Source of the DNA: Cladochytrium replicatum | Lineage: Eukaryota > Chytridiomycota > Chytridiomycetes > Cladochytriales > Cladochytriaceae | Reading direction: 5' to 3' | Length of the DNA: 40,741 bases | Assembly: GCA_025526935.1 (NCBI GenBank) | Contig: JAHLKD010000159.1 | Span: forward strand, 1 to 40,741 | Shown: positions 2,095 through 33,667 of the stretch, in pieces | How the letters are laid out: every line of letters starts with the position of its first letter | How positions within the stretch are numbered: position 1 is the first letter of the stretch | Notes under the pieces: generated by a model | Database searches by the model: none | Told to the model about the DNA's origin: nothing | Seen by the model: the letters and a program-made list of their open reading frames with translations, nothing else | Position numbers and translations under genes: made by a program

Positions 2095-3505
2095 GAAGTA
2101 CCGTCCAGGAGTTGAGAAAGCGACCGCCTGGACAGAATCCTATTACAAGTAGTATTTGTAGAGAGGTTGGTTGTACTTGATCGAGATCAGTGAAGTATCA
2201 GTGAAGTACCGTCAATGAGTTGAGAAAGTGTCCGGGTGGACAGAATCTTATTGCTAGTAACATTATTAGAGAGGTTAGCTGTACTTGATAGAGATCACTG
2301 AAGTACCGTCAATGAGTTGAGAAAGTGTCCGGGTGGACAGAATCCTATTGCTAGTAACATTGATAGAGAGGTTAGTTGTATTGGGTAGAGATCACTGAAG
2401 TACCGTCAATGAGTTGAGAAAGTGTCCGGGTGGACAGAATCCTATTGCTAGTAGTATTTGTAGAGAGGTTAGCTGTACCTGATAGAGATTACTGAAGTAC
2501 CGTCAATGAGTTGAGAAAGTGTCCGGGTGGACAGAATCGTATTGCTAGTAACATTGATAGAGAGGTTAGCTGTATTGGGTAGAGATAACTGAAGTACGTC
2601 AATGAGTTGAGAAAGTGTCCGGGTGGACAGAATCTTATTGCTAGTAACATTGATAGAGATGTTAGTTTGTACTTGATAGAGATCACTCAAGTACCGTCAA
2701 TGAGTTAAGAAAGTGTCCGGGTGGACAGAATCTTATTGCTAGTAACATTGATAGAGAGGTTAGCTGTACTTGATAGAGATCACTGAAGTACCGTCAATGA
2801 GTTGAGAAAGTGTCCGGGTGGACATAATTTTATTGCTAGTAACATTGATAGAGATGTTAGTTGTACTTGATAGAGATCACTCAAGTACCGTCAATGAGTT
2901 AAGAAAGTGTCCGGGTGGACAGAATCTTATTGCTAGTAACATTGATAGAGAGGTTAGTTGTATTGGGTAGAGATCACTGAAGTACGTCAATGAGTTGAGA
3001 AAGTGTCCGGGTGGACAGAATCGTATTGCTAGTAACATTGATAGAGAGGTTAGTTGTATTGGGTAGAGATCACTGAAGTACCGTCAATGAGTTGAGAAAG
3101 TGTCCGGGTGGACAGAATCGTATTGCTAGTAACATTGATAGAGAGGTTAGTTGTATTGGGTAGAGATCACTGAAGTACGTCAATGAGTTGAGAAAGTGTC
3201 CGGGTGGACAGAATCGTATTGCTAGTAACATTGATAGAGAGGTTAGTTGTATTGGGTAGAGATCACTGAAGTACCGTCAATGAGTTGAGAAAGTGTCCGG
3301 GTGGACAGAATCGTATTGCTAGTAACATTGATAGAGAGGTTAGTTGTATTGGGTAGAGATCACTGAAGTACCGTCAATGAGTTGAGAAAGTGTCCGGGTG
3401 GACAGAATCCTATTGCTAGTAGTATTTGTAGAGAGGTTAGCTGTACCTGATAGAGATTACTGAAGTACCGTCAATGAGTTGAGAAAGTGTCCGGGTGGAC
3501 AGAAA
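2095..3505 (+). repeat. 97-bp minisatellite, about 15 direct copies
   Basis: Tandem units of 96-97 bp follow the hAT stop almost directly. Each unit contains the core ACCGTCAATGAGTTGAGAAA, then TGTCCGGGTGGACA, then TATTGCTAGTAACATTGATA and AGAGGTTAG. Core starts are spaced 96-98 bp from about 2205 to 3465. The first copy, about 2099-2135, is the most divergent. Some units lack one C (ACGTC instead of ACCGTC), and two alternative linkers (TTGGGTAGAGATC and CTTGATAGAGATC) mark sub-types. No unit has a useful open frame. The repeats may be subterminal repeats of the adjacent transposon or an independent satellite. Confidence 0.95.
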
Positions 3506-3540
3506 TCTGGGAGACTGAGTGTCACTGTGTCTGTCTGGGT

Positions 3541-3790
3541 AGAATAGGATTCTGTCCCCCCGGACACTTTCTCAACTCATTGACGGTACTTCAGTAATTT
3601 CTATCAGGTACAGCTAACCTCTCTATTAATGTTACTAGCAATAAGATTCTGTCCACCCGGACACTTTCTCAACTCATTGACGGTACTTCAGTGATCTCTA
3701 TCAAGTACAGCTAACCTCTCTATCAATTTTACTAGCAATAAGATTCTGTCCACCCGGACAGAATCCTCTCTATCAATGTTACTAGCCAGT
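3541..3790 (-). repeat. inverted copies of the 97-bp minisatellite
   Basis: The same unit continues in reverse orientation after a spacer of about 40 bp at 3505-3545. Two almost complete inverted units begin near 3545 and 3645, followed by a partial one that repeats the TGTCCACCCGGACA core and the ATCAATGTTACTAGC block near 3745-3785. The direct and inverted blocks form a very large imperfect palindrome. Sequence identity to the direct units is high, so the inversion is recent or maintained. Confidence 0.93.
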
Positions 3791-3927: not shown

Positions 3928-5856
3928 ATGCCTCGAACTACAAAGAAGCGAGCGTTAAAACAATCCAGACCATCATCTGAAAGAGAATCAAGTGCAGAAC
4001 CTGTGACTGCACCTGAAACATCTCTGGCATCGGGTTCTGAAGTGGAAGCAGAAGAAGTTGGCCTTGATGTCAAATCGACAGATGTCAAATCGACAGCTCC
4101 TTCAAAGAAACCGGCGCGACGTGGTACTAAAGGGGATGCTGACTATTTGCTCATCGACGGACTCTGTCCTGCTTCAGACATACGACTTTGGTATCGAAAA
4201 TTCAAAGCGAGCGGCCACAGCTACGACTCGGAGGCCTTCATCAGCAACTGTCAAACAAATCGTGATGAATGCGGCCCAAGATTTGTTCTTCAAGGGTTGA
4301 TCGACCGACTTAACTCTGACAGCAAGCTAGTTCGTCAAGCCCTGAACGAAATTCACGATGAATGCAGTGGACGAACGGAGTTCATAACAGCAGCAAACGC
4401 CTATCGTATGGAGTGCTTGAAAAGCTCTTCCTTTCAGAAGGAAACAACATTTCTGGACTTTTACAGGCGGCAGGGACACAAGTACGGCATTTACAGAGGA
4501 ATGCCCGTCACTGCAAAGGTTGATGAGTTCCAAGCGACCATCAAACGAGCAGATGAGGACCGTGAAAGGACAAAACAGGTCCTCAAACAGTCAGAACGAC
4601 TGTTGAACATGACAAAAGATCTTGAAGAGACTGCAATGAACGAGAGAAGGACCCGCATCGCAGCAGAAGTGCGAGAGAAGGCTCTCATTGATGAATTGGG
4701 CAGGGCGGGTGCATTGATTCAGCACGGCGAGCACGAAGAGCTAGCAAGATTCAGGGAGATCACCGCCGCAATGGAAAGGGAGAAGCAGGCAACTTCCCAG
4801 GAGATTTCACAATGGAAATCACGTGTGACCGCCCTGGAGGGAGAGCTTGCTGCTCTGAAACGACAGGCTGGTCATTCAGAAGCTGCAGCACCTGCGGCGC
4901 CAACATCAACAGGCGGCCTAATAAGCATATCGTCGGCTATCAAGGGGATTGGTAGAATTCCGAAGGTACATCGAACCAGTTCTCCAACGAGTTCCCTTGC
5001 ATTGCTTAGCCTGCAGCAGCATCGTCGTACGGCTATCCTTTTGGTGAAAGAGGTCATCCAGGGTATCTGCTTCCAGATGCATAAGATCAATGAGGTTATT
5101 TATGACCTTAAATTGCCGTCTCTTCCACCAGCAATCAAGTACGTCAATGTAAACTACGAAGTCCTCTCCCGAAATGAGTTTTTACGGCCCATATTTGTTG
5201 AATCAGACGACCGCTCAAGCCGAATATCAACTTCAAGTAGCAGTTCTCGGAGCAGCCTTACTCTTCTTAGGGTGCACATTTTGCTCGGAAACTGGATACG
5301 GCACAATAATTCGCTAAGTACGTCTGCCACTATCTATCGCATGTTCAGGGCATTAGTGGATGCATATCCTTCTGAGTGGCTAAGGTTCTGGACGGCATAC
5401 ATCGGGCATCTTTCGTCCATAACGCTCCCTGAGGTGGATTGGAAACCTTGGAAGACAGGTTTAGCCAAGGATTTCATGCTTTCAAATGACGACATTGATC
5501 GGTTCATCAGGACTGGGTTGGCGAAGGACGTAACCAGTGGTGGATGGGACTCTGACGATATGAACCAGATACAGAAGCTGATTTGGGCTGTTCCACCTAT
5601 CAACTTGTTTCTTTTTACGATAGTGTTTCTAAAATACACACTGTCCACACAGACACAAAGTGTTCATGTAAATATCCGTGGTCTAACTCAAAATTCAATC
5701 AATCCTCTCCTGGGCAGCAAAAACCCGGCGGGTCAGGGTCGGGTACGGGTTTCAACCACTTCGGGTCCGGGTATTCCCTTTGTACCCGTCAGTGACCCGG
5801 CGGGTCCCCAGACAAACACGACCCGACCCAAAGGGTTTGGTGCGGGTCGCCACTGA
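3928..5856 (+). CDS. unrecognised 642-aa protein with central coiled coil
   Basis: A long single open frame starts at an ATG in a reasonable context (ACACCATGCC). I do not recognise a family. The N-terminus (residues 1-70) is basic and Ser/Glu-rich, as in nuclear proteins. Residues about 75-190 look globular, with Trp, Tyr and Cys residues. Residues about 195-315 are rich in Glu, Arg, Lys and Leu in a coiled-coil pattern. A low-complexity Ser/Thr hinge and a second globular part follow (about 355-590). The last 45 residues are encoded by the GGGT-rich tract and may be read-through of a repeat rather than original protein. It sits between a satellite and a retroelement remnant, so it may be a mobile-element gene or a gene captured in repeats. 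Confidence 0.55.
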   Translation: MPRTTKKRALKQSRPSSERESSAEPVTAPETSLASGSEVEAEEVGLDVKSTDVKSTAPSKKPARRGTKGDADYLLIDGLCPASDIRLWYRKFKASGHSYDSEAFISNCQTNRDECGPRFVLQGLIDRLNSDSKLVRQALNEIHDECSGRTEFITAANAYRMECLKSSSFQKETTFLDFYRRQGHKYGIYRGMPVTAKVDEFQATIKRADEDRERTKQVLKQSERLLNMTKDLEETAMNERRTRIAAEVREKALIDELGRAGALIQHGEHEELARFREITAAMEREKQATSQEISQWKSRVTALEGELAALKRQAGHSEAAAPAAPTSTGGLISISSAIKGIGRIPKVHRTSSPTSSLALLSLQQHRRTAILLVKEVIQGICFQMHKINEVIYDLKLPSLPPAIKYVNVNYEVLSRNEFLRPIFVESDDRSSRISTSSSSSRSSLTLLRVHILLGNWIRHNNSLSTSATIYRMFRALVDAYPSEWLRFWTAYIGHLSSITLPEVDWKPWKTGLAKDFMLSNDDIDRFIRTGLAKDVTSGGWDSDDMNQIQKLIWAVPPINLFLFTIVFLKYTLSTQTQSVHVNIRGLTQNSINPLLGSKNPAGQGRVRVSTTSGPGIPFVPVSDPAGPQTNTTRPKGFGAGRH

Positions 5857-5885
5857 AACCCGGACCCGACCCGGACCTGCCGAAC
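5728..5885. repeat. GGGTCGGGT / ACCCGACCC-rich low-complexity tract
   Basis: Degenerate short repeats of GGGT(C/A)(C)GGGT appear first on one strand (about 5729-5775) and then on the opposite strand (ACCCG, about 5785-5880), giving a self-complementary stretch. Both flanking ORFs (unknown protein on plus, gag on minus) run into it and end in it. It probably formed or arrived at the junction between the two elements. Confidence 0.7.
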
Positions 5886-6853
5886 CTTAGTGCACACCCT
5901 AGAGACGTGTCCATACTGGCCACAACGACGACAGATCAGTGGTGCAGGTTTCATATTCTTACCGCGGGTGGAACCATTTCCACGTCCACGAGGAGGGCCA
6001 TATCCAAAATTGCGAGAGGGACCTCCACCACGGCGCATGCCACGTCCGCGTCCACGAGCGCGTCCACGGCCACGTCCACGGTAGATGAACATGTTCACTG
6101 GTGTTGTTGTTGTTGAAGGAAGTGCAGGGCCAGTTGGGACAGGTAAAGTCAGAGTCGATGTTGCCAGAGCCTGGGGGACAGGGATTCCATCATAGCCAAT
6201 ATTGAGCGAAGGTCCGCCAAGTTCAGCTTGTCTTTGTATTTCCAATCCATGAGTCCTGTCGTCAAGCATACGGGTGTAAAGATCATGATATTTAGTAAAG
6301 TTTTTGGCTCTCAATTGGTTGCTTATCGCGATGTCTTGTTCTTTGAAGGTTTCCAAGGTTTTTGTTATCATCTTCTCATCTGTGACTTCGGCAGCTTGTC
6401 CGATGCGCTTCATTTCGCCAGAAATTTTCAAGATCGCAGAGTTGTTGGCGATGATGTCGACATAATCGGAGAGTCGAAGTTTCTGCCACTTTCGACGTAC
6501 TTCAGTTGCAGCAGCATTCGCAAGTTGGGTGTAGGTCGTCTTGAGGTCTTCCAGAATTTTGCCCGGGTGGTACCATTCGGCATACTGAGCTCCAATAGTG
6601 TCAGTCGGCAAGGATTCCTGGATGAATAGCAGAAGTCGAGTTGCATTGGTGAACAAAATGTCTTCATCGGGGTGAAGTTGATTTTTGCTGAGTCCAGGGT
6701 GCCATCATCATTGATGCCAGGGATGACTTTGTTTTTGTCCAAAAATGAGCGGAGACTGTGGGCGATGGCGATTTTCTGGATGTTGGCGTGCCAGGCAATC
6801 CAGTTGGATCCATCAGTCTGCAGGATAATCTTCTTGCCCTTCAAGTTGGACAT
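5885..6853 (-). pseudogene. Copia-type retrotransposon gag remnant with zinc knuckle
   Basis: Minus-strand Gag-like reading. It opens at 6853 with MSNLKGKKIILQTDGSNW, the start typical of Ty1/copia Gag (UBN2-type) proteins, continues through a helical region, an Arg/Gly tract (GRGRGRARGRGRG) and a CCHC zinc knuckle (CRRCGQYGHVSRVC) near 5890-5935. A one-base frame change in a C-run near 6667-6672 splits it; reading on either side of that run continues the protein naturally. There is no protease, integrase or reverse transcriptase after the knuckle: the sequence passes into the GGGT-rich tract. This is a truncated element that cannot move on its own. Confidence 0.8.
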
Positions 6854-11711: not shown

Positions 11712-13462
11712 TTATTCTGACTTGACGTTTGCATCAATCGCAACCTTTTCCACAACATGCGTCCATCCACTTCTTTGTCTCCCTGACCTTCCCCACAGTT
11801 CTAAGAGTCTGTCGCCGTTGGGCCTTTCAGCAGGATCATACGTGCTTTGGGGCAGAAGCGTCTCGATCAGTTCATAGATGAACTCTGGTTTATCATCTCT
11901 TGATTCTCCTTTGTAGCAGTTCCGTCAGATTCATATAAAACTGGCTGGAAGGATAAAGAGTACCTGGTTGCATAGGCTTGATGAAATCAAACTCACAGTC
12001 TGCGCTCCTCTGATGTCTAAGATCCAGCTGTCCCTCCTATCAGAATGTAATTTTTTTTAAAACTCTCTGCAGAGAAGAGTCGTTGGGGTCCAGCGTTCCT
12101 TTTGTACCTTGCGAAAGATGAGGCAGGTGGTCTTTGACCGTGCAAAGAAGCGAGAGGGTTGGCGCGCTATGGTGTTGTTGGGTCTGAGTCGGACCCACAC
12201 AAAGTTTTCGACGTAGCGGAAGCCGGACCAGGATTTGTCTGCCATGGATAAGATCGCGGGCGTGAGTTCCTTAGGCGTCCAGATGAATAGAAAGCCTTTG
12301 GGGATGAGTGTTGGGATCGGGAGTTTGGACTTGGAAAAAAGTTTCAGTGAGCGTTGAAGGGATTGAGAAAGTGGGCGAGATGAGGTTACAAGCTGTTCGA
12401 CAGACACTTTGCCGGGAGATGGTGGCTCGCGCGGAAGGAGGAGCGGTGGGTCTATGAGTACGGCTTGGAAGTCGTTGCCGAGTATGGAGTAGTCGAAATC
12501 GAATACTTTGGGGGATTCAAAGTAGCGTGAGCCTGTGCAGGGTTGGTTTGGATCCCGGAAGGGACGGATGCGTTTCACCCAGGATCGGGGTATCGGGTCG
12601 GGAGGTATTCGGACGACGGTGTACACCCGTGGATCTGTTGGTGCACTTTCGAGCAATTTGAGTTTCTGGAGTGCGTATTGCAAGCACACTTACGTGACGG
12701 GTCGGGGAGCGATTGATGTAGTGCTGGGTTGTCTGTACTGAAGTAGTTTAGAGCGAGACACGACGGAAGCGTACCGCCTTCGACTGTGTAAAGCGGAAAT
12801 CGAACGTTTGTGTGGTGTCTCGTCTTCCCAAAAATCCTCGTCGGCAACGTCATAGTCACTAGGAATGAGTTGAATACAAAAGGTGTTGGTGACTATATGG
12901 GACATCTCACTCTGCTTCCTCGACGAAAGTGTCCCAGTCTCCGTCTGCGTGATTGTCTTCTAGCAATTGAAACAGTTCAGTGTCGTCTAGCATCGACGGA
13001 TCTTCTTGTGCCGAGCGAACAGTGAATGCTGATGTGCGCTTGAAGAGCTCCTCGAGCTGTTCTTGAGTTAACGCTGCTGTTGTAGTGGTATCTTCTTCCT
13101 TGGGTTGATAGAGATCAGAGGTTATTGATGACAAGGAGCCGAAAATAACTTTTTTCACCTCGATCGGTTGTGGTGAATCATGCATGGTGGATTGCGGATC
13201 TGCGAACATGCATGTTGAAGATGATGAAAGTGCGACTGGTTTTGCGAGGTCCGCTTGGAGGTTTTCGAGCTCATCAAACTTTTTCATGATGGCATCGACT
13301 GATTCTTCGTCTTCTGCGTAGCCCACATACCATGACGAGCTGGGAATATAAAGTTAATTCAGTTTCGATGAATAGAATGCACATATTTAGTATGGTTTAC
13401 CTCACATTAGCGCTGGATGTTGCTCTCCGTGCGGATGTTCGCTGCGAGCGCCGTGTCATCAT
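11712..13462 (-). CDS. MT-A70 family methyltransferase-like protein with DPPL motif
   Basis: Adenine methyltransferase-fold protein related to METTL3/METTL14/MTA proteins. Exons on minus: 13462-13401, 13339-12911, 12858-12775, 12737-12694, 12634-12108, 12036-11964, 11884-11712. The sum is 1392 nt, 463 aa, in frame. The N-terminal third starts MMTRRSQRTSARR, then SSWYVGYAEDEESVDAIMKK, and is acidic (DVADEDFWEDE). The MT-A70 part begins after about residue 200: FQAVLIDPPLLL (12441-12452), PKGFLFIWTPKEL, RYVENFVWVRLRPNN, ARSKTTCLIFRK, and the C-terminal NGDRLLELWGR plus SGWTHV. DPPL replaces the catalytic DPPW; METTL14 has EPPL and is inactive. A non-catalytic partner role (Kar4/METTL14- or MTA9-like) is inferred. 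One intron is only 37 bp, so exons 3-4 are the least certain join. Confidence 0.85.
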
Positions 13463-13550
13463 TAATGTTACTTCAAATGCCACCAACCCGATTAGGCAAT
13501 AATTACCGGCTGCGGAGTCCCAGACCTTGTATTTGCACCCACAGAGAAAA
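13463..13550. promoter_or_regulatory. 88-bp bidirectional intergenic region
   Basis: Only 88 bp separate the start codons of the minus-strand MT-A70 gene and the plus-strand R2-like gene, so they must share promoter sequence. No TATA box and no MluI-type S-phase element (ACGCGT) is visible within it. Confidence 0.7.
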
Positions 13551-15116
13551 ATGCTGTCACCTGGAGCGTTTGAGATCGACGAGACCATGGGCGACGACTC
13601 GAATGTGGTTAGCAGTCTGGACAAGGACGAGCCGATCCTGATCGAGCAGAAGAAGCGGTTCGTGCTGTTCCCCATAAAGCACCACAAAGTAAGTTTACAC
13701 TAGAAGCAGCCTCGATCGTACACCAACACTCGAAAACAGATCTGGCAGACGTACAAGACTGCGGAAGCAAAGTTTTGGAGTGCCGAGGAGCTGGAGCTCT
13801 CCGACGACGTCGATGGTACAGTATTAAATTGGGCAGCACGTTTGGGCTTCCGGAATCTCACTACTCTATTTGATGTAGGATGGGAACACATCGCTCAACG
13901 ACAGCGTGTCTTCTTCACGCAGCTCATCGCTATCCTTGCTTCCAGCGACACGGTGGTCCCCACAGAGTTTATCAACCGCTTTTCGGACGAGATTCAGGCT
14001 CCGGAAGCAAGGTGCATGTTTGGGTTCCAGCTGATGCAGCGAAACATCCACAACGAACTGTTCCATGTCATCCTCGACCTCTACGCGAAGAGCTCCATCG
14101 ATCAAGAGCTTGCTTTCGACAACATCAGGCAGTGTGAGTAATGGAATAAGCATCAGCAGTTTAAGGAGCGCAGAGTGCGTCTCTTACATTGAGCGTAGCG
14201 GTGTTTTCTTTTGCTTTCCTGTGCAGAGTTTATTTGGGTTTCCTTTATTCCCAACACCGCTTCGTGGTGTTGCGGTGTTTTTTCTCCGTCGACGTTTTAT
14301 TACCAACATCGCGAAGCAGTTTTTCTATTTATACTTAATCCTCACATTGCTTCGCGGTGTTTTTCTGTTTATTTTTTATCCCCCACAGCGCTTCGTGGTG
14401 TTTTACTTGCACTACTTGGGTGTTTTCTATACTTTCCAACCAACTAACATGATTTTTTTGTTCTACCAGTCGACAGCATGTCACGAAAAGCTGCTTGGGT
14501 GGAAGCGCATCTTTCCGAGAGTGGGGAAACGTACAGCACACGAATCGTTGCACTAGCCATCTACTCCTCAGTCTACTTTACATCAACAATCGCCACACTC
14601 GTCCATATGCTCCACCCACGACGCAACGAGCCCGCCATTCTCCCGGGGTTACTGCGAGCGATAGCCAAGATGTACCGCGACCACAATCTGTATATCTCGT
14701 TTTATAGAGCAGTATCTCTATCGCTTATCAACCGACCTGACCGAACCCAAATCCAGCGGATTGCAGCGGATGCGATAGGGATCGAGATCGACACGCTTAT
14801 AGATACGTTTGGAGTGTGCGGATCAGCGCTGAGCGAAGACGATGCAATGCTAAAGACGGAAGTTGCAGGGTTTGTGGTGAGGAGGGCGAATGCTATTCTT
14901 TCAGGGTTTGAGTGTGGGACACTTGCAGAGCCGAATGCAGGAGCAGGGATGTGGATCGATGGGGTTCTTGAAGATGAAGTGCGAGCAGATGATTCGGAGA
15001 TGTCTGGGATGCAGGGGATCGAGTTTACAGGAGCGGCAGCGTTTGGACATCCGAATCTCCCTAGCGAGATGCAGATCAACGTGCGACAGCAGTTTAGTCT
15101 TGAGGAGGACTTTTAA
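13551..15116 (+). CDS. ribonucleotide reductase R2-like pseudoenzyme (Rnr4-like)
   Basis: Class I ribonucleotide reductase small-subunit fold. Exons: 13551-13688, 13740-13815, 13879-14133, 14470-15116. The sum is 1116 nt, 371 aa, in frame. Family landmarks: RFVLFPIKHHKIWQTYKTAE, KFWSAEE, AILASSD, PEARCMFGFQL, NIHNEL, LPGLL, and the C-terminal FSLEEDF, the R1-binding tail. Active-site positions by alignment to mouse R2: Asp ligand kept (D95), Glu ligand replaced by Arg (R126), His ligand kept (H129), radical Tyr replaced by Phe (F133), second Glu to Ser (S189), third Glu to His (H228), last His to Tyr (Y231). It therefore cannot form the di-iron tyrosyl cofactor. Yeast Rnr4 shows the same kind of loss and acts as a structural partner of an active R2. 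The third intron, 336 bp, is far longer than its neighbours. Confidence 0.9.
14170..14420 (+). repeat. short stem-loop repeats inside R2-like intron 3
   Basis: The T-rich intron contains several related segments: GTAGCGGTGTTTTC near 14197, AACACCGCTTCGTGGTGTT near 14260, AACATCGCGAAGCAG near 14305, ATTGCTTCGCGGTGTTTT near 14347 and AGCGCTTCGTGGTGTTTT near 14388. They are about 40-45 bp apart. The second can fold into a perfect 6-bp stem (AACACC/GGTGTT). Confidence 0.7.
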
Positions 15117-15747
15117 TGATACACGAAAAGTTAACAAGGCGTAATATTAATTTCCAGTGATAATTCCCAGGCTTACCTAAACTGCCCATGTTTGCCAAGC
15201 CAGCCGCGGAAGAAAAGATAAAAAATAATCTTGGTGATTATTAAATATAGAAACAATGTCACGGAATCACTCCGCCAATGGCTGGCTGGGTGATGGGGTG
15301 CCAAACGAACAACGCACTGCCAATCCCGGGATTATATGTGCCGAGTCTGCCGAGCGACGACAATCTGCACTGCACACAGCCCTACTGCATCACTGCGAGT
15401 CGGACAATATTCCACTGCTGCAAGGCAGGTGATGAAACAAATTTGAGGCCCAGCTGATAATGTGATAACCAGCATGGACCCTTGTTCACGCTGCCAGCTG
15501 TCAGGTGCTTCCGACTGGGCCGTGCACCCGCTGCCCCTCATACCTGGGCTGTTTGCCCTACTCTCCCACGGTAGGTCCCAATGCTGCCAAACCCCCGACC
15601 CACCACTGCATTGGCACTTGTCACTTAAGTCTTGGCTGTTTCGTTTCTATTTGCTCTTAAATAAAACAACCACTGTAATAATCCTCCTCGCTTAAAATCG
15701 TGCCCATTGCCCTCGACTATCTCGACTGGCTGCCAAACCAATTTCAA
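15117..15747. other. intergenic region before LicD gene
   Basis: This holds the 3' end of the R2-like gene and the upstream region of the LicD-domain gene. An A/T-rich stretch at about 15655-15667 (CTTAAATAAAAC) could serve as a core promoter. Nothing else is recognisable. Confidence 0.4.
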
Positions 15748-17511
15748 ATGCTGCCGCTGTGGAACAACGCCAACAGCAAGTTCTCCTATCCATACTCACA
15801 TGTCCACGATCACTCCCCTCCTTCATCGCCGCTGGCAAAATACCCAAACAAACTCCTCAAACTGTTCGGTGGTGTGCGCATGTCGGGCCTCAAGCTCATA
15901 TGCGTCGCTTCGGCTGCATCGACCCTCGTTTGGGTCTACTCGCTCTCTCAATATCAGCCTTCAACTCAGGAAACAATCTCTGAAGAATGGGTAGTGCCCG
16001 CTCCAGATCATTCACCGCCTCTTATCGTGACAGAGTCGGCCAAAGTTCTTGCTCCATCACTGGGTGCTTCGCCCGTGATTGACTCCATCGTCCCAAGCAA
16101 ATCACCAGAACCTGACTGGGAGTCACCATCTCCGTCGCCATATTCATCATCCCCGTTTCCATCACAGTCACCATCTCCTTCACCCTCGCCATCTCCACCA
16201 TCCCGCATCCACATTCTGTCACCGTCCCCGTCACCATCACCTTCGCCATCAACATCGCCCTCGCTATCACCATCGCTATCGCCATCGCCGAACGCGGTGG
16301 TTGCCAGTGATCCCGTTCTCGCAAACAAACCCGCCGACGTCATTTTCAACTCCCAATTAGGAGATGACGACGAAGACGAGAACGTGTCGATCAAACAGGT
16401 TCCGCCCGACGAACGAAAGCTTTTCTCGCAGTCGTTTAGATACGACGAATCCAGGGAGCAGATCGAGGCCTATGATCTCGACGACGTGTGGGACATCCCG
16501 ACCGAAATGTTTGTGCCCACGCATCTCAAGCTGAACTACATGGACCTCCACATCCCGCCCTCGTCCGTACCCTCCATCGCAAACCAGCAGCGCTACACCA
16601 ACCTCGGCGCGTCGTACAACTTCGCCATTTCGGACCAGAAGCATTTCTTCGAGGATTTGTCGTGCCACCATCTCGCTCGAAAGTACTCAAACATGAGGGC
16701 GATCGACTACGATCTCGATCGCGGGCTTGTCCCGGACTTGGCCAAGATCGTCGCGTCGTGGTCAGCGTTCACGGAAAAGCACGAGATACCGACGTGGATG
16801 GCGCACGGGACGCTGCTGGGATGGTTCTGGAACCGGCAGCTCCTTCCTTGGGACACGGACCTCGATTTCCAGGTGCCCGTGCAGTCGCTTGCGACATTGA
16901 CGGGGCTGAATATGACGCGATCGCCGGACAAGCGTTACGTGCTCGAGGTGAACCCGCACTCGGCGTTCCGGATACACCAGCACCACAACGTCATCGATGC
17001 GCGGTGGATCGACACGCGCACGGGGTTGTTTCTCGACATCACCGCGTTGTCGATCACGATGCCCATGGAGACGTACAGAAACAATGCGAATTCCGGGTTT
17101 GCGAGGGTGGCGTGTAAGAGCACGCACCAGTACGAGGACTACGAGATCTCGCCGCTTGTGCTGACCACGCTTGAAGGCGCGAAGGTGTGGAGACCCGCGA
17201 GACCGCTGACGCTGCTCAGGAGGGAGTATAGCGAATACAGCATGTCGAAAAGGCACTGGTACTACAACAATGAAAAGTTTGTGTTTGACGAGTCGGAGCT
17301 GAGTTGGAAGAACACGGAGGTGGCGTTGCTTGTGGATGCGGGGGAGAGGAAGGAAGCGCAGAAGATGGCCAAGGAGGATTGGTGTAAAGGGTACATGGGG
17401 AGACCGACGTCAAAGTCGATTGCAAAGGCGGCACTGCGGGCGGGGAAAGCCGCGACACCGAAACCGAGCTCGGGGGCGAGTCCGAACACAATGGGTTCGT
17501 CAGGTAGATAG
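15748..17511 (+). CDS. LicD/Mnn4-type phosphotransferase family, type II membrane protein
   Basis: Single-exon gene, 587 aa from the first in-frame ATG (the frame is open further upstream to about 15700 but without ATG). A short cytoplasmic part is followed by a signal anchor (LKLICVASAASTLVWVYSL, residues about 48-66). A stem rich in SPSPSP repeats (about 125-190) and acidic DDDEDE follow. The C-terminal half is the LicD domain: MAHGTLLGWFWNRQLLPWDT then DLDF at about residues 352-374, with the conserved PWDxDxD acidic motif. In fungi this family (Mnn4) transfers or regulates mannosyl-phosphate on wall glycans; fukutin-related proteins are the animal relatives. Golgi location is inferred from the topology. 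Substrate unknown. Confidence 0.85.
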   Translation: MLPLWNNANSKFSYPYSHVHDHSPPSSPLAKYPNKLLKLFGGVRMSGLKLICVASAASTLVWVYSLSQYQPSTQETISEEWVVPAPDHSPPLIVTESAKVLAPSLGASPVIDSIVPSKSPEPDWESPSPSPYSSSPFPSQSPSPSPSPSPPSRIHILSPSPSPSPSPSTSPSLSPSLSPSPNAVVASDPVLANKPADVIFNSQLGDDDEDENVSIKQVPPDERKLFSQSFRYDESREQIEAYDLDDVWDIPTEMFVPTHLKLNYMDLHIPPSSVPSIANQQRYTNLGASYNFAISDQKHFFEDLSCHHLARKYSNMRAIDYDLDRGLVPDLAKIVASWSAFTEKHEIPTWMAHGTLLGWFWNRQLLPWDTDLDFQVPVQSLATLTGLNMTRSPDKRYVLEVNPHSAFRIHQHHNVIDARWIDTRTGLFLDITALSITMPMETYRNNANSGFARVACKSTHQYEDYEISPLVLTTLEGAKVWRPARPLTLLRREYSEYSMSKRHWYYNNEKFVFDESELSWKNTEVALLVDAGERKEAQKMAKEDWCKGYMGRPTSKSIAKAALRAGKAATPKPSSGASPNTMGSSGR

Positions 17512-22971: not shown

Positions 22972-25900
22972 TTATCGCAAAGATGCTGTCTGAGGAGCAA
23001 GCTCTACCCCATCATCAGATTGTCCGGCCATCCCACCAACTTCGATGGAGCTGGAGGCAGATTCTTCAGGTGGCAATTTTGCGACCTTAGATTCCAGTCT
23101 CCCATCCTCCGATAGAGCTCGAACAGGAAACAAATCTTCTTTGAGAGTTGGCAGAAAAACATTCACATTCTTCCAAGTTACGTCCCAAAGGTTCTGAGTG
23201 GCTGGCTTACTGGAGGTAGATGGTGGTGGCTGCTGATCAGATTCCGAAGGTTGAAAAACTCCTTGAGTTGACATCACCAACAGCATATTTTTCAGGCTCT
23301 CTAGCACACCCTCGTACTACATAAATAGACGAATTTAAGAATAGGAGGAGACAGCCATTTATCAGAGATTACCAAGTATTCCCCGCCTGCGTGCATGTAC
23401 TGGTTCAGGTATTGAAGAATTCGCACCCAAAGATCGGGAAGATCTTTCCACCTCATCATACGGTTCAAATACTGCAAGAATATTTTGCAGAGTAGCCCGG
23501 ATGCCCTCATTCGTGTCTCGTCCATTCCTTGCGGATCTAATTGAAACACCGCGGGCTTCAGAAGCTCATCCAAGAGCGGGAAGAGGACATTTTCGAAACA
23601 GTCAATCCATGGGTCGATGGAATCCGACTCAAGGTCTGGTGATAGCAACGCACGCTGAAGGAAGGTCAACGCAGATTGCCGCACTTCCCGAGAAGGATGA
23701 TAGCATTGTTGGCCGAGTCCCGACAGAATCGGCAACCAAAACTCAAAGTAAGCTAAGAAGTGAACGGTTACTGATGATTCGCAGGGTTTCACATAAGTAC
23801 AACCTCGCGATTGCTTCATCTCAGCCTGTTTCACCAACTTGGGGATTCTGAAGTGCAGCTTGTAGAGCTGCTCAACCGCACGCAGTGCTCGCTCAATTGC
23901 TGCCTGAACCGCTTGGCTTTTTAACAATAATATAAGCGAGTACACTTTGGAGAGAGCAGATCTTAAGTTACCTTTTTTGGTTCGCCACCTTTCTCGCAAT
24001 CTTAGGACTTCCTCCTCGGCTAGACCATCCGTCATCGGCAATTAAATTGCTGATTTGTGGGGGCGTTGCAGTTGAAACAACCTGGTACCCGCTCATACCG
24101 TTCATGGACCTCCCATTTGCTGAAAGGTTACTCAAGGATCCCAAAGAATTTGTTGTGGCCGGAGCGATAGAGCCCACGTCCTGGTTGCTGCCAGTCATGA
24201 AGCCACCCGCCGCCACCGCGAAAGAAATAAGCAGGTCAACACATTCCGCAAAGTTTTCTTCGTTCACGAGGTGCGAAGCGGAGACTTCGTCGTTGATTAA
24301 TATCGTAGCCACCTCAAATGAATACGATGCAGCTTCCTGGTGCATAGATGTTCCGGCTACTAGACCGAAAATTGTTCGCCAGCGACCATTCAGGATGAGC
24401 ACCGAAAGATCATCCTTGGCAAGGACCAGGATTCCCGCCATAAGTTGCTCTGCGACATTACTGAACGTATCTTGTGGAAGTCGGGGTATGCCTTCAAAGA
24501 GGGAGAAGATATCTACAATAACTTCATCCTTAACATTTGGTATCAGATGAGGCATTAGTGCAAATGATGCTTGTAATCACCTTGTGTGCAATACGAGAGA
24601 TAAGTCGAATAAGGCCCACAATTGCTCTATCCACAAGGAGGTGATGTGTCGTCTGTGCATTTGAAAAAATCCCCGAGATGAACTGACGTATCTGAGGCCA
24701 AACCACTTGGATCCGATCCCGGTTTTGAACCGCGATGTTCACCATTATTTCAAGCAAAAATGCAGATGCCGCATTGTACTTCATCTGAGTTTGCTGGCCT
24801 TCTACAGGCTGAGCACTTCCAGCTACTGGTGCTGTTGCGGCACCATGCTTTCCGGCCTCTACATTTTGAATCGCTGCATCTGAGATAGTCTGGAGAAGTT
24901 CAATCAAAGACGATTCTTGGAGAAATCTGCGAAGAAAGTATAAGAACATTAGAATTGTCTCACGTTGACAAAAACGCCTTTATTACCGGCTGTCAACAAA
25001 AACGTCTTCAACTCGACAGGCTCGCACACAATCCAAAGTGTGCCTCTCACAATCCAGCTCTTCGGCTGTAGGTGGGATATCATCCTCCTCGTCGACATCC
25101 GGAGCGAAAGGTCCACCGCCAAGTGAAAGAAATTGGGAGATCGTCGATAGAAGGCCTGCATCTTTGCGAGGCTGGACCGGTTGTTGCTGTTTTGGTTTCA
25201 GTGATTGTCTTTCGGAAGGTACACGTGGTATGGAGATTATCTGTTTCACAAAATCTTCTGCTTGCAGCATCGTGATCGGTAGTAGGGAGTGCAAGAAGAG
25301 GTTCCGTATGCATACCAATATCTTGATATCTGATGGTCAGCATTGTGACTCATGGTAACAGAAGCTCAAACTTACACTCTTCCAACCATTACGCAAAGTA
25401 TTTCCGTGTTCCATGGCGAAATTGAACATCAGAACAGCTGCCACTTGTCCGCGATACGACCGGCCGAACTCGACTGCCCATGGATCAACCTTGATTGGAC
25501 GACCATTTGTGTCCAATCCAATCTCGTCCTCGCGAAGTGAGCGTTCTGGGGGTAAGCGATCTGTCTCTCTCAACAGCCCAGTAATCTTGGATAGAGATAT
25601 GATGATATTGTCCAATACATCGTGCAATCCAAAGGAAGATGCGATTAGAGCACAGTGATGTAACCCAACAACAGCTTTCTGCATCGTCAAGTCATCTTCT
25701 GCATTGTCGAAAGCTGAAATCGGATGTTAGTTTCAGACGTTGTGACCAACAGGGTTGATCCCACCATAAGCGAGTGCCGCAACTATTGGACCCCGAACTA
25801 GGGAAAACATATCCTGATCAAACGCGCCAGCTGCCGTCGCCGTGTACAGGGCACCTTTGTCGGATCTTTTAATCAGTTCACGCCAAGCATAGCTGAAACC

Positions 25901-28900
25901 AAGGTCTCCTTCGTGCTCTTCTGGCATCACAATCTCATTTTCACGAATCGTATCGAAAATGTGTTTCTAGATACCATATCGCAGGTGATTACTACGATCC
26001 ACTCAATATAAAACTGTTCCATACCAAGTAATCCGCAGAGAAGTTCTTTCCATTGTTGATACCCCGAGTGTTCTTTTGAAAATCCTCGAATGTCATTCTC
26101 CTCTGAGTTAAGATCAACAACAAGATTACTGAATAATTAATTGTGTTCACCATACCCGAACTTGGGGATTGTGCTGGTCGGTATTCAGCATAATGACAGA
26201 GTAGGCGAGCAAAAATGTTGCACTTTGATCTTCGATCTCTCGATTCGGGTCACCTAAGGAGATAAGGTCCAGTTCATCTGAGAACCACACCTTTCATTGT
26301 CTGAGCTTACCCTCGATGGTCTTAAAGAATATATCAGAGAACTTATCCATAACACGCTCAATCTGCTGTGATTCCCCGGGTAATCGAAAGCTCTCCAGCA
26401 TCATTCGCAGGGCTTCATCAATTCGTTTCTGAAGCGGAGAGTTTAGCAAACGAAACACTTTCAGCGGAAGACATACCGCAGTGAATTCAAACTGTCCAAC
26501 AAATGCATGCATTACGTCTACATTTGCTGGCTTTGCCAAGTATTCGCCAAGCAGGTGCTTGTTAATTTTAGGAGTAGTTCGAAGAAGTCTTGCAAGTTCT
26601 TCCGGGGAGTAATTCTCCGGTAGAAACCCATTCGCTGAAAAAATCTTTGTTAGGAACATACAATGAAGCGATTATTTGCACTAACCTTTTAAGAAGTCGA
26701 TACCGTCCTTTGGCTTCTCGTTGAATCTCGTAGCTCCTTCCATCAATATGCGCTTCTTTCGCTTATTCTCTACAACCTGAAACGCCGTCGGTACAGCCTA
26801 CATTCAACGACATTGGGAGAGTATTCTATCGTATGTTTTGTATGTACGCACTGCTGTTTCAATCGCAACATTGGAGAAGAAGTCTGTTACCACCTTCTTG
26901 GCCGATCCACCAGCACCTTGTCGTTCCACAACTTGTCCAAGATATAGCAAAATCGCGTCCAGACATTGAGTCTGATGCGCCGGAGTAGTTGCTGGACCTC
27001 CCGGAGTGGCATCGGGGAACGAATGTTTGCACAAAAATCGAATAAGGTCCTCGAAGAGGTTGACTTCACTGTCTAGGTCTCCGTCGTAATTAACGTACAG
27101 CTCAGTGTGGAAGTCTGCGGAACGAGATAGCTGAGACATAGTGAGAATTTTGTGTGAATCAACGATGACTATCAAAACAAGTACCTGGACAAGACAGTCA
27201 AGCACAACTTCTCGGACTTCCCCAACCATAATCGTGGCAAGCGCATTCCGCACCTGCGTGAACGTGCGTGGGGCTGACGCTCCGGGGGAGTTTGCCCAAT
27301 CCACGGTCGATTGTCCGCTTCCCGCGGATGAAGGTGCAGATAGGCCAGATTGTGACACAACGTTACTCCATTCATCGACATCCCAACCAAGCAAACCCAT
27401 ATCCAGGCGCGACATCATCCACTTGATCAGCCACTCCGCCTGGAATTTTAACTGTTCTTTGCACGATTGCAAGAGGACAGTGGTCACTTTCAATGCAGTC
27501 GTAAAAAACGTCATGGTTGCATTTGAGGGAGGTGAGCTGACTGTAATGTTTGCAGCTTGAATTATCTTGGTTGTGCACACGGTCAGAATCAAGCTACAAT
27601 TTTGAATGCTGAATCCTACCTGGAACAAAAAGCGGCACATCTCATTTGTAATCAAGTCCTTCGCTAACACCGCCATTCGCTCCTCATCTGTATCGTAGTC
27701 GTCATCTGTGATGGTTGGAAGTGTTGGTTGCTCTTGTTCGGCTTGAGCATCCAGCGCACTCTCTGACTGTGGCGGGAGTTCTTGCTCCATTCCGTCGCTT
27801 TGCAACAGCGGAGCAGATTCTGAGCTCGGAATGTCAATACTGGGAAGTCCTGGTGGTGCTCCGTTGCCCGCGACATCAACCACATGGGCAACTGCCCGTC
27901 CAGCTGCATCAACATCGACATTCACAGCACTGCCTCTCCTTTCAACACCGGATTCGTTACGCTCTGCTGCGTTAGCATCTTCCGCTTCACTAGCAATAGC
28001 GCCTGTGATTCCTACGCTCACAACCCCGGCGCTAACATCCCTGCTCGTGACGATTTTCAAGTCCGAATTGCTTGAAGCAGAGCGCATCCATGGTTGCCCA
28101 TGCCCTTCTGCCTGGAATTCCAGATTCGATTCTCCTTGAGGTCCAGACGAATTAGCCATGACCTCACCACCAGAGACGGCTATAATTGTTGTGGTTTTAG
28201 AGGAACGATCTCTTCGCTGTGCTTTAAGCTGTGCGCCCCAGCTAATCCAGCAACAGAGAGACCGACCACCAACTTCTAAGGCCGTGTTCAGCAATCCCAG
28301 TGCAACCATTCTGTGGACCGAGTCAGAATGCTGTCGGTTTCGTGGATCCATCAGCGTTGTCAGCACACGAACCAGCTCTAAAATTGCTGGCAGACCGTAC
28401 GGTGCGAAGGAATACTTCTGGACCTCTTTAGTAGAGTTATTCGGATCTTGACGGAGCGTAACAGCGGTGCTTTGAATAGTTGCAGAGTCCACATTAGCTG
28501 CAGTGTTTCCGCTTTCGATAGAAAGAGTGTCCGATTGTTCGACAACGAATTCTCGCTGAGGTTGTTGGGAAAGCTTTGATCCCGACGCATTAATATGCGC
28601 GGAAGTGAATGGCTCTCCGGGTTTTGATTTATGAGGAGGGTTGAACTGGTCCTTCGCCCTCATTATGAATGTCAACCTAGGAGTAAAATTTGGGTCGGTA
28701 AACGAGTGAGGTTGATTGAAGGCTTCCAACCTTTCAAATAATGCCCTAGTGAGGACCACCAAAGTCTGCTCTGCGGAACGCCTCAAAAGCTCTGGAACAA
28801 AACGGTGAGTTAGTAACCTCCGTAGGAGACATCTGTGCCAACCAAACGCACCGCTCACTCTGCTTTGAAAACACATTCCAAATGCAGCTTCTACCATTTC

Positions 28901-29748
28901 GCAGATCCCCTTGTCATCTAGGCTACGCCGACCCGCATCAGAGTTCACAATCACTCTCAGAAGCTTCAGAATTCTCGTGAGTACGATCTCATCCGACACA
29001 GCATCCGTGGCCTCAAATTTGCAATGAGTGACGGAATGAACGAGGACCGACATCGCTCCAGGAAGATTAGGGTGATCTGGGTGAAGTATGCCGTGAAGAA
29101 CGAAACTTTCGACAGAGCTTAGAGCAGCGCTGGTGATCGGACCCGTTGTGTCTCCACTTTTTATTACTTCCAGAAATGGTTCAAGTAGATGCAATGGATC
29201 CAAATCGCGAAGGTCTAGAAGCAATAGAACTTCGAAACTGGTTTCTGAATCTGCACCTTACAACGCATACCTTTCCGAAGAGTCAGTCGCGCTTTTAATC
29301 TAGCGAATCCTTGCAGGAGAGGGGAATCTTGGCCAGACCCAATGCCGATTTCCTTCCTCTTTTCACTCGTAAATTCGAGAACGGCTTCAAGTCCGGGAGC
29401 CAGTCCGTGCGCAACAAAATCCTCGCAGTAGTCGTACCGTGTAGGCTCATACCCAGAGCCCCCTCGTTTCAGCGAACCCATTGTACCGGAAGGGCTCTGT
29501 CTGTAATAGTCGGTCCTGTAGGATTGGCTGCTCTGATCGCGTCCATACATGTTCGCGATGCTCCATCGCTGGTTCTTGCGCATAGTAGCGACCACGAAGG
29601 CGATCTCCGAGTGCACGACGGACAGCCATGAAATCTCCGCCAGCGGTTGCAGCCGTCGCTGGTGTTCCATCGCCTGTAGAGTTGCCACGTCGAAAAAGCC
29701 ACAGGATGGTGGCCAGCCACAGCGGATGAACGAACAAGCCACAGTCAT
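22972..29748 (-). CDS. GBF1: ARF guanine-nucleotide exchange factor, GBF1/Gea family
   Basis: Large multi-exon Sec7 ARF-GEF that activates ARF1 at the cis-Golgi for COPI coat recruitment. N-terminal DCB region: WLSVVHSEIAFVVATMRKNQ, RWS, then PFLEVIKSGDTTGPITS (near 29150), with SDEIVLTRILKLLRV. A long Ser/Asn/acidic insert (about 27650-28650) follows. HUS box: NYDGDLD near 27075-27095. Sec7 domain: GFLPENYSPEELARLLR, the glutamic finger FRLPGESQQIERVM (about 26355-26400), and MLNTDQHNPQVR (about 26160-26195). The C-terminal HDS-like part runs down to the stop at 22972 (ending QTASLR). The start may be the ATG at 29748 or the one at 29670. Introns are numerous and short; I did not resolve every junction. 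All key motifs are intact, so it should be functional. Confidence 0.9.
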
Positions 29749-29799
29749 AAGGTGGGAACTTTCTCACGAAGTGTATGGATATGACCAAAAGGCTTGCTA

Positions 29800-30742
29800 A
29801 AGAAGTAGGCACCACGCATGGAGGGACAACACTTTCTCCCGTCTCACAACTTGGAAGCTATCACCTTGATGAGGGCTGAGCTCAGAAATTCCGGCTTCTT
29901 TGTCCGTCCTCCCAACTTGGATCTCCTTTACCGGACTCCAAAGAACTGTGGGCCAACTTTCGCCGTCTTTCAAGTCTTGGGTACACCCCTTAAGTGCAAG
30001 GCGCTGAGTACCATTGGATGGAATAAGATAAACAAAGGCTATCTTGATCGTTATATTGAACAAGTGCGACGAGGTTTGAAGCATGATTGGGACAAGAATC
30101 TTATATATTAAACACCTCCTGCTAAGAAGTTCTACCAGTTCCTTTGAAATTGCGGGTTGGCCAAAGACGGCTGCTAGAGGCATTGCATGCTTGTTTCCAG
30201 CATTAATTTGTGCAGCCCATTGTCAGAAAACAATTCAAGCTTCATCTTTATACCAAGATATGTATCCTCCGCGTAGAAGAGCAGCTGTGCGAATGGTGGT
30301 TTCTTCCTAACTTTGGTAGTTTTCTCTGTCTTCACTAAGTATTGTGCCTCAAATGCTGGCAAGGGTCGTAATCACCGATGTTACACAACCGCGCATCAAA
30401 CCCGCGACCTGGTAGATTGCTGTTTTGCCAGCCCTCGTTGGAACAATGCACAGCAAATCAAAGCCAGCACTAATAAAGTTCCAAGCCTGTTTCTGATGTT
30501 CGTAGAGTTGGTGTATCCCAACTTGTCGAACAGCATGATTCTCCAAAATCAAGGTACTCGACAGGTTTACTCATGTCGCACAGTTGCTTCGCCAGCTTAT
30601 CCTGATTCACTTGCTCAGTATTCCTTATTACCCAAATCAACCCCTGCCCGCACCTTGTCGTGAGGCTAAAGAAGCTACATCGGGATAAACTTTGTTGCTT
30701 AATTTTGAGAAACGAAACATCTGTCGTGTTGCAGCCGCACAA
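29800..30742 (-). pseudogene. RecQ/DEAD-like helicase fragment, degenerate
   Basis: On the minus strand, 30349-30552 encodes YEHQKQAWNFISAGFDLLCI then VPTRAGKTAIYQVAGLM. This is the Q-motif region and Walker A loop of a RecQ/DEAD-type helicase, with PTRAGKT in place of PTGxGKT/S. The following stretches in other frames (30174-30362, FAQLLFYAEDTYLGIKMK, and 29797-30183) have protein-like composition but carry no other helicase motif that I can identify. The reading is broken by frame changes. Such fragments are common as repeats in fungal genomes. It lies directly upstream of GBF1 and downstream of S41 gene 1. Confidence 0.5.
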
Positions 30743-30761
30743 GAAGAGCTAGCACCACGTG

Positions 30762-33667
30762 CTATGCAAATGATACAAGGAGGTATTTGATTTTGACACC
30801 AAAACCGTCCGCGTTCGAAATGTCCGACGTGAACCGAAGGTTCAACCCAACAACGGATCTGCCCGAGACAGGCGCATATCGTGTACCAGAAGCTGATCCA
30901 ATTCCCGCAAAGTTGAAAAACTCGGAGATAGGCTGTTCTGTTGTGGGATCAAAAATGAAACAAGTGAAGAAATCCCTGTTGGCCTCGGAATGGACTTGAG
31001 AAGTTAGCCTGACAGACATCCTGACTGCTCCAGTCGGGACGGACAAGATCAGCACAGCCGATGTGTCGAGGTTGTCCACGTAGCCAGTTCCATCACCAAT
31101 GACCAAAGCTCCGTCAAGCAGACGCCATCCATTTGCAGGGTTACCGATCGTGTAAATCGCAGCAAAGTCGCTTTGAGGGAAAGTTTGGAGGTCCCATACG
31201 AGTGGGTACGATGAAGCTTTACCCTTCGGATAGACCTTGAGCATTCGATGTGTTTGAACGTACTGGACACCATCGCGGAAGGCCTGGACGGTGAGAGTTC
31301 GGAGTGACGGTGTGGCCAAAGCAGAGGATGGAAGTTCCAGGCCGAGGGTCTTCACAGTGGCATCATCAACGCCGGGAGTACGACCGAGAGACTTCTCCAT
31401 GAGGACTTCCTCTGTGAAACGATCAATGACGCGGAACGAGTCGAAGTTGGCAATCGTGAGGACATACGGCAATAAAGCGCTCCCAAGGGTACCAATAGGG
31501 CGTAGCGGTGTGAGGTTGAACTTCGCCTCGTAATAGCCCTTCCTGTGAACGGCATTGTTGAGGTAGCCAGCGATCTGGTCGAGATTCTCGAATACGGGTC
31601 CAACGTCATCTAGTATATCACTGCGGATATGATCATCAGAAGTTGTGAACTATGTATTACGCTCAAATACGTACCGAATAGACAGTTTTACGTTGCCACG
31701 ATCAGCGACGACACCGCGATCCTCGAGAAGCTCTCCTGCGTTCTTTAGGACACGGACGAACTGACGGTGACCAATTGTAGCATCCTGGCCGGTTCCCAAG
31801 ACGTCAAGACCGGGAAACCCGGATCCAGCCAAATTGGACAACGTATAAACGACAGCTCCACCACCGCCAGTTTCTCTGTCCGCGCCAATAATGAATGCAA
31901 GATCGTTGTCCTGCATTTGAGCGTTGAACATATCGCAGGCAGAGTAGCAGTTGCCGTTGTTGTAGACCACCACTGGCTTGATGTAAGCGGTCCCCAGCCT
32001 GTTAGCGTCCTCCTGTGACGTGAGTGGAACAGGATCGGTGTACTTGTCCCCATTCTGGAGAGCCTTGACGTAAGCTTGGTAGTACTTGTCATTGCCGAAT
32101 GTTTTTCTGTTCACGATGAAATCGGTATTAACTGGAGTGACAATTCCACGGAATGCGCCGGTGGAGATCTGTCCACGACGAAGAAAGAGCTGAGGGAGCA
32201 TGTCGGCAATGAACACGAACCCTCCTATTCAACAAAAAGAAACACTTCAGAAAGGGAGATACACGTTAGGGATTGCAAGATCAACTCACCTGGGTTGCCT
32301 GTGACGTCGATGATTAATCCGTCTGTATCAGCGAGCTCATTACTCAGCAGACTTTGGACGAAGTAAATGAACTCATCGGTGTTTCGGTAAACAGCCTCCC
32401 CGGGATTAAAGGAGTAGAGCCGAATGATACCTACATTGCAAGACTCTGAACGATACTTGGTCTATAATGAATGGTGAGGTTTGCTGTTTCGAGCTTATGG
32501 ATTTCTTTGAACTCATACCCAACCCAAAATGCTATTCGACCGGTTAAAGGGAATCTGGTCCCCGTAAGGAAGTTGGTTTCGAAATTGCTTGTTCTCCATA
32601 ACCGGTGTCAAAAGTGTCTTCTTCGTCTTTTCGTCAGTAAGGACGCGGGCACTGGTGTCTATCTGCTGAACTTGAAGCGGCGGATGGTTTGGCCAATCGA
32701 TGGTCGACTCACAATCTTGAACGATTTCAATCAACCAAGGTAACGTAGCTGTGTAGCGTGTGACAAGTTTTCCGGCCAGATCATAACGAGCCAAGCTAAA
32801 AGTAATGTTGTCAGCTTCGGGAAAAGCGTGCGCGTAACCAAGTCGATTGGTAAGGTAGAACGCTGCGCTTCGGTATCCGCCAGACAAGTTGGCTCCGTTC
32901 TGATCGTCCTGAACCATCTCAAAAAACTCCTTAAAAGACATGCCGTCTATTTTCTCTAACTGCAGAGGGCTCGCTCAATTTAGCGCTTCAGAATTTCATT
33001 GAAACAATACTCACGATGTCTCCGATTTGAATCTGCCTGGCTTCTGGAGTAAGTGCAAGTTCATCGTCAGAGCCTATGGAAAACACTGCCGGTCTGGCGT
33101 TGTTGATTTGATCGTCAGTCTTGCTGAGACCGAAACGAATGGGAACAATAACATCTACGCAGCCGTGGGGGTACGGCATGAAGTAGATGGCGCTGTTTGA
33201 CGAGGTTATCATAGACTGCAGGACAAGTATCATAAAACTTACTGGAAATCGCGTAAGCTCGAAAACCTAAGCAGCAAGTTAACCAATATCGCATCAGACC
33301 ACAAAAATCTGCAAAACCTACATCTTTGCCATTTTGAGATGGAACTCGCGGTCGGTATAGTTCTTCGCATTGGCAACTAGGTCGCGCAATACTGGACGAT
33401 AATCTGCTCGGGGGCCGTAATTGGCAAGCTTCGAGTCAAGCGTGGGATCTATGCATGTGAATTGAGTGTCAGACATCTGAATTGCGTGACAGCTGTGAAG
33501 AACATACAAATCCCAAACATTCTCTCAATGCTGTCTGCCACATACTGGCGGGTTTCCGGAGCGTAGCTTACGAACGCATCAAAGTCTTTACGCCGGTTTG
33601 AAAACAGCTCTTGGCCGAGCACCGAGATCGCGAGAGAGATCGCGAGAAAACGGGAGAGCAGGATCAT
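30762..33667 (-). CDS. secreted S41-family peptidase, copy 1
   Basis: Multi-exon gene (introns about 55-75 bp) starting at 33667 with a signal peptide (MILLSRFLAISLAISVLG) and ending VSFA at 30762. N-terminal part: NRRKDFDAFVSYAPETRQYV, DSKLANYGPRADYRPVLRDL. A conserved FMPYPHGC (about 33170-33190) may hold the catalytic His of a CPAF-like S41 enzyme. Catalytic region: VFIADMLPQLFLRRG, then NNGNCYSACDMF with the likely nucleophile Ser (about 31925-31960), and IIGADRETGGGG. The last 240 residues form a separate C-terminal domain of unknown function. A close tandem paralogue follows at 34022-36937. Expanded secreted S41 sets are known in chytrids. Exon limits are not fully resolved. Confidence 0.85.

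Follow-up and report, generated by a model that had tools for sequence, protein, structure and literature searches.

A dismantled ribonucleotide reductase R2 paralogue with a retained putative R1-docking tail in Cladochytrium replicatum and its chytrid relatives

Cladochytrium replicatum is a chytrid of the order Cladochytriales with a genome of 50.5 Mb in 198 contigs. We analysed contig 159 of that genome at its full length of 40,741 nucleotides (nt), hereafter the window, which carries at 13551-15116 on the forward strand an intact four-exon gene, 371 codons followed by TAA, for a paralogue of R2, the small subunit of ribonucleotide reductase. The product is letter-for-letter the GenBank protein of C. 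replicatum called "ferritin-like superfamily" (P0001), and the three introns, of 51, 63 and 336 nt, are all of the GT-AG type. The coordinates agree with a preliminary description of this DNA, as does the length of 371 codons; the introns had also been described as in-frame, which holds for intron 2, at 63 nt readable throughout, and fails for introns 1 and 3, both of which carry in-frame stops. Introns 1 and 3 stand at the aligned codon and phase of both introns in the normal R2 of C. replicatum, so that the paralogue most likely arose, to judge from the gene sequences, by duplication of an intron-bearing genomic R2 gene and not by retroposition; inheritance of the introns from an older common gene fits as well. 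Intron 3, 5 to 7 times as long as its neighbours, contains two inverted pairs and a 15-mer resembling GCKTMGYGGTGTTTT in four copies. The features of the gene are collected in Table 1.

The protein is an R2 by its score of 175.3 bits against Pfam PF00268, where the gathering cut-off is 33.6, and it matches human R2 at E=2.8e-52 (phmmer) in an alignment without gaps around residues 126-133 and 226-231. These two results, and the clade described below, exclude a chance open reading frame. With the yeast Rnr2 sequence from PDB as the ruler for residue numbering, the six Rnr2 metal ligands D145, E176, H179, E239, E273 and H276 align with D95, R126, H129, S189, H228 and Y231 of the paralogue, so that two of six are kept and four replaced. 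The radical tyrosine, Tyr183 of Rnr2, has become F133, and the C-terminal Tyr376 is matched by S332, where the alignment is poor. All five substitutions at 126, 133, 189, 228 and 231 had been claimed in the preliminary description, as had the retention of D95, H129 and the tail FSLEEDF, and the alignments bear each of them out. Might the residues simply be misaligned? The ungapped alignment with human R2, the ruler alignment and the clade led us to reject that reading. Both radical tyrosines and most of the metal ligands are lost; the R2 fold, the tail and the Trp-Asp-His triad are retained by sequence or structure model. A normal class Ia R2 has six ligands and a radical tyrosine, a set that the paralogue lacks; the R1-docking peptide of such an R2 is present in its sequence. 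The R2c/R2lox proteins, as characterised in the relevant passages of PMC3824934, keep their metal ligands and have Glu at the D145 position; here D95 is Asp and four ligands are replaced. The C-terminal third is poorly conserved in the family, conservation being 0.15 in residues 341-360 and rising to 0.52 in 361-371, and residues 343-365 of the structure model lie below 50 in predicted local distance difference test (pLDDT).

Does C. replicatum possess a second, active R2, as the preliminary description had proposed to ask? A six-frame, genome-wide search with PF00268 finds matches besides the window on two contigs, C22 and C67, and the spliced genes encode 340 residues each, with all six ligands and both tyrosines. 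Absence of a normal R2 was thereby rejected. The C22 and C67 proteins are 96.5% identical and their coding sequences 89.7%. Matches to R1 (PF02867) lie likewise on C22 and C67, separated from R2 by about 13 and 9 kb, and the linked pair of R1 and normal R2 is present twice (L006 and L007, on C22 and C67 respectively). Codon differences between the two R2 genes number 91 silent and 12 replacement, a pattern such as diverged haplotypes or segmental duplication would give. The paralogue is single in the genome: its protein matches only itself and the two normal R2 genes, the DNA of 13000-16000 matches itself and one stretch of 116 bp on C106, and a second copy of 13000-16000 or of window 25000-31000 was not found in the genome. 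It is 30% identical to the normal R2 P0191 over 286 columns. The core of the MluI cell-cycle box (MCB), a G1/S promoter word, occurs within 600 bases upstream of the paralogue, C22 and C67 genes 0, 1 and 0 times, with about one expected for each.

Relatives of the paralogue were sought with a profile from ten chytrid relatives; 7,992 candidates were scored and the best 120 of 3,535 matches listed, so that more distant members may be missed. Among the matches listed, 25 proteins score 318 to 564 bits and constitute the family, and the next, from 291 bits, are normal R2. The 25 represent 21 named species, of which two contribute a pair of proteins, and two further sources; the EukProt label Hompol1 we take to be Homolaphlyctis polyrhiza. 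Taxonomy was looked up for 11 of the 21 species, and all 11 are Chytridiomycota, distributed over seven orders and a family whose order is uncertain. The C. replicatum paralogue thus belongs to an old clade in Chytridiomycota that extends across seven orders. In the case of P0083, from Chytridiales sp. JEL 0842, paralogue and methyltransferase domain share one model of 689 amino acids, which may be a gene-model fusion error, and the methyltransferase part was cut off before alignment. As to viral relatives, a scan of IMG/VR with an alignment of ten family members brought up a single protein, 254 residues of an R2, in which the usual ligand and tyrosine motifs can be read by eye. Judged by titles and the openings of abstracts, the open-access literature in PMC on chytrids or Batrachochytrium and ribonucleotide reductase yielded no description of the clade, and the open PMC literature on fungal pseudoenzymes no paper on it. 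The passages of PMC8085122 on cobalamin and class II ribonucleotide reductase in early fungi mention no second R2.

Which residues, then, has the family kept? In Rnr2 numbering, W108 and H179 are present in all 25 family rows and D272 in 24, so that the triad is kept nearly without exception. D145 survives in 15/25. The other ligands have mostly gone: E176 is kept in 1/25 (Arg or Lys stands there in 19), E239 in 2/25, and E273 and H276 in none, the last being Tyr in 21/25. Tyr183 is found in a single row, with Phe in 14, and Tyr376 in no row. The ..DF tail is present in 20/25; the five rows that do not have it are P0003 and P0084, which their source calls partial, P0013 and P0005, which have odd ends, and P0083. 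As a control, all six ligands occur in 283 of 284 other R2 proteins and both tyrosines in 284/284, these proteins being the best hits of searches with R2 queries and not a random sample. Columns invariant in 29 normal R2 rows and also filled in the family number 133; the family keeps 24 of them at 90% or more, and 17 of these 24 fall within residues 36-131. Three columns picked at random from the 133 would all be kept with P ~0.005, a figure that can serve only as a guide because the triad was chosen after inspection. A separate case is P0093, on a contig of 1,669 bp, which keeps D145, E176, H179, E239 and the radical-position tyrosine; E273 is replaced by Arg (as in Rnr4), H276 by Thr and D272 by Glu. 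Decay may have gone less far in this protein, a possible intermediate; its position within the clade is not settled by the tree.

The tree, in corrected form, comprises 54 rows and 309 columns, with the trait columns masked, and uses 24 of the 25 family rows; its rows contained no sequence known to be an R2_e2 (the second R2 of apicomplexans). The 24 family rows form one clade with support of 100/100, as did the chytrid rows in an earlier tree. Within the clade the two Batrachochytrium proteins join at 100/99, the two Synchytrium proteins at 100/100, and Rhizophlyctis with Borealophlyctis at 93/93, and many deeper forks are left open. Rnr4 and yeast Rnr2 were joined at 100/97, 100/98 and 100/98 in the three best trees. 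A phylogeny had been among the checks proposed in the preliminary description, and its outcome speaks against decay: the clade is conserved and has mostly kept its tail. For nine species with both proteins, the distances among paralogues and among normal R2 are correlated (Mantel r 0.53, p 0.027), which is consistent with vertical descent. Across these nine, the paralogues share on average 40% identity and the normal R2 proteins 80%.

Table 1. Exons, introns and key residues of the R2 paralogue gene, in window coordinates
Feature	Position	Strand	Remarks
Exon 1	13551..13688	+	ATG start; codons 1-46 of the R2 paralogue
Intron 1	13689..13739	+	51 nt, GT-AG, phase 0; aligned place and phase as intron 1 of normal R2
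Exon 2	13740..13815	+	contains W59 (13776-13778), Trp of the Trp-Asp-His triad
Intron 2	13816..13878	+	63 nt, GT-AG, phase 1, without in-frame stop; absent from the genome's normal R2 genes
Exon 3	13879..14133	+	contains D95 (13947-13949), retained metal ligand
R126 (exon 3)	14040-14042	+	replaces Glu
H129 (exon 3)	14049-14051	+	retained ligand, also triad His
F133 (exon 3)	14061-14063	+	replaces radical Tyr
Intron 3	14134..14469	+	336 nt, GT-AG, phase 1, repeat-rich; aligned place and phase as intron 2 of normal R2
Exon 4, including stop codon	14470..15116	+	contains S189 (14565-14567), replaces Glu
D227 (exon 4)	14679-14681	+	retained triad Asp
H228 (exon 4)	14682-14684	+	replaces Glu
Y231 (exon 4)	14691-14693	+	replaces His
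C-terminal tail FSLEEDF, residues 365-371	15093..15113	+	R1-docking peptide of eukaryotic R2 by family knowledge

How does the clade compare with R2 variants already known? With normal class Ia R2, such as P0191, the paralogue shares the fold, two intron positions, a conserved block at 36-69 and the tail, and it differs in having no complete metal site, radical tyrosine or C-terminal relay tyrosine. Yeast Rnr4 is likewise an R2 fold with diiron ligands lost, His276 changed to Tyr and a ..DF tail, encoded beside a normal R2 in the same genome. At the six ligand positions, however, Rnr4 reads D, E, Y, E, R, Y, so that it keeps D145, E176 and E239 and has lost H179, whereas the chytrid clade keeps H179 throughout and has nearly always lost E176 and E239. 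Rnr4 also keeps the tyrosine at the radical position and the C-terminal tyrosine, which the clade has almost wholly or wholly lost. Between Rnr4 and the C. replicatum paralogue the sole shared change is His276 to Tyr. The preliminary description was right about that change and about a loss at least as complete as in Rnr4; the loss is more complete (two of six ligands kept here, three of six there). Its mention of a Glu-to-Arg change in Rnr4 too needs refining, as the change lies at E273 in Rnr4 and at E176 here. Its term Rnr4-like is fair as a functional analogy and less secure as a statement of descent: Rnr4 groups with Rnr2 in the best trees, it has lost other ligands, and the relevant part of PMC2704937 describes it as an ohnolog of RNR2 from the whole-genome duplication and as stabilising the Rnr2 diiron centre in the heterodimer. 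The apicomplexan R2_e2 proteins, which include PfR4, offer a second comparison, and in the sections of PMC3824934 devoted to them they are a second R2 clade within one phylum, beside a normal R2 and on long branches, having mostly lost the radical tyrosine, lost the C-terminal tyrosine and kept the tail. According to the same sections R2_e2 keeps the iron-coordinating residues with few exceptions, which the chytrid clade mostly does not: in the paralogue the tyrosine losses are accompanied by loss of the iron ligands. PfR4 interacts with PfR2 and R1 in Plasmodium, again by the account given there.

The behaviour of Rnr4 and PfR4, together with the conservation pattern of the family, suggests for the chytrid protein the role of a catalytically dead R2 (a pseudo-beta, or beta-prime), docking on R1 and pairing with normal R2, a reading to which we give a probability of about 0.5. 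The dead chain would dock on R1 by its C-terminal tail and join normal R2 in an asymmetric alpha2-beta-beta-prime reductase, with the iron-tyrosyl cofactor confined to the normal chain. The task of the dead chain would be to stabilise, assemble or tune the reductase; Rnr4 acts in this way in yeast, and the reported association of PfR4 with PfR2 and R1 suggests the same in Plasmodium. R2 binds R1 through its C-terminal peptide, and in E. coli R2 the side chains of Trp48, Asp237 and His118 constitute a hydrogen-bonded chain from the metal site to the R1 side; the role of the conserved Trp as a redox relay in class Ia R2 is still debated. With the metal site, the radical tyrosine and the C-terminal tyrosine gone, the triad cannot relay radicals in this chain by the known path, and it is likely, as far as sequence can tell, that it has been kept for structure or for coupling to R1.

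Several observations weigh against this reading. Mean tree distances among the paralogues are 6.4-fold those of normal R2 in the nine species, which is loose for an obligate partner. Some chytrids, Spizellomyces and Polychytrium for example, have a normal R2 and no paralogue among the matches listed, no search having been aimed at absence, so a partner may not be required. The GKTNFF segment before the tail is gapped in 25/25 rows, in a poorly aligned stretch, and presentation of the tail may therefore differ. The C. replicatum gene is about 25.5 kb away from a contig end that resembles a telomere. As to origin, the paralogues can be forced together with Rnr4 at p 0.324 in an approximately unbiased (AU) test on the corrected tree, and at p 0.385 once 16 normal R2 rows are added and the family is represented by 13 slower rows; the first tree, in which two trait columns had been wrongly chosen for masking, gave p 0.048. 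Grouping the paralogues with 17 chytrid normal R2 rows gives p 0.43, so that the branch point relative to chytrid normal R2 is not fixed. All of these tests are limited by long branches. Descent separate from Rnr4 is favoured by the trees, and the forced grouping with Rnr4 is not firmly rejected.

The main rival is that the protein is a decoy for R1. A dead homodimer would fill the tail-binding groove of R1 and so lower reductase activity, for instance in zoospores or resting cells. Conservation of the tail beyond an unconserved linker, the retention of no catalytic part, the fast divergence and the chytrids with a normal R2 and no listed paralogue are on its side; the block of kept positions in residues 36-131 is more than a scaffold for tail display seems to need, and we consider the decoy possible and on the whole unlikely. 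Has the protein instead left ribonucleotide reduction, its helical bundle serving some other task? The poorly conserved C-terminal third, the gapped GKTNFF segment and the fusion in P0083, if it is not an artefact of the gene model, would suit such a departure, but the prevalence of the tail and the near-universal triad point to R1 docking and R2 architecture, and we hold this to be improbable. More doubtful still is a rebuilt one-metal centre, in which D95, H129 and the new H228 would form a two-histidine-one-carboxylate site at iron position 1. The corresponding set, Asp145, His179 and His273, occurs in 7/25 rows, C. replicatum included, and is missing from 18/25; moreover, all seven rows with the set have Arg or Lys at 176, which would put a charge in the site (a placement that draws on the ligand geometry of R2), and such a centre would be very surprising. 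A decaying pseudogene or gene-model artefact, which fast divergence and a position near the contig end might suggest, was rejected as scarcely credible in view of the intact frame, the GT-AG introns and identical public model, the two introns matching normal R2, and the site-specific conservation of a clade that spans seven orders.

The rest of the window adds some observations on the chromosome. The contig ends at 40612-40741 in about 13 copies of the 10-bp repeat TTAGTTAGGG. Three copies of TTAGTTAGGG have 328 forward and 310 reverse matches in the genome, and among the first 100 or so listed the reverse-strand matches lie at contig starts and the forward-strand matches at high coordinates. 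(TTAGGG)4 has no match in the C. replicatum genome. From the location of the repeat at contig ends and the absence of (TTAGGG)4, the telomere of C. replicatum seems to be a fused TTAG+TTAGGG 10-mer. Toward the other end of the window are a hAT transposase frame (578-2062, PF05699), a satellite of 97-bp units (2197-3760, 13.5 copies, 93% match), which continues from 3543 with about two copies whose consensus is the reverse complement, and a retroelement-like reverse-strand frame with a weak match to a CCHC zinc knuckle (5733-6704).

What would a dead R2 of this kind mean? Our tentative proposal, held with some doubt, is that a dedicated non-catalytic R2 subunit arose early in Chytridiomycota, separately from Rnr4 and PfR4, and that it is more dismantled than either and retains the triad. 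Non-catalytic R2 partners are known already from apicomplexans and from the genome duplication of yeast. A third instance, spread through a phylum and with another, more thorough pattern of loss, would suggest that conversion of an R2 copy to a non-catalytic partner has happened more than once among eukaryotes. Public records name the family proteins ribonucleotide reductase small subunit, subunit M2, ferritin-like or hypothetical, and a picture of chytrid nucleotide metabolism drawn from annotation would enter a dead subunit among the active ones. If the proposal is true, the triad, which is taught as a radical relay, would be under selection for structure or for an R1-coupled conformation in a chain that is free of radicals. 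The family is a natural experiment that separates the R2 residues needed for structure and R1 docking from those needed for metal and radical, and in it Trp108, His179 and Asp272 persist while both tyrosines and the majority of the metal ligands are lost.
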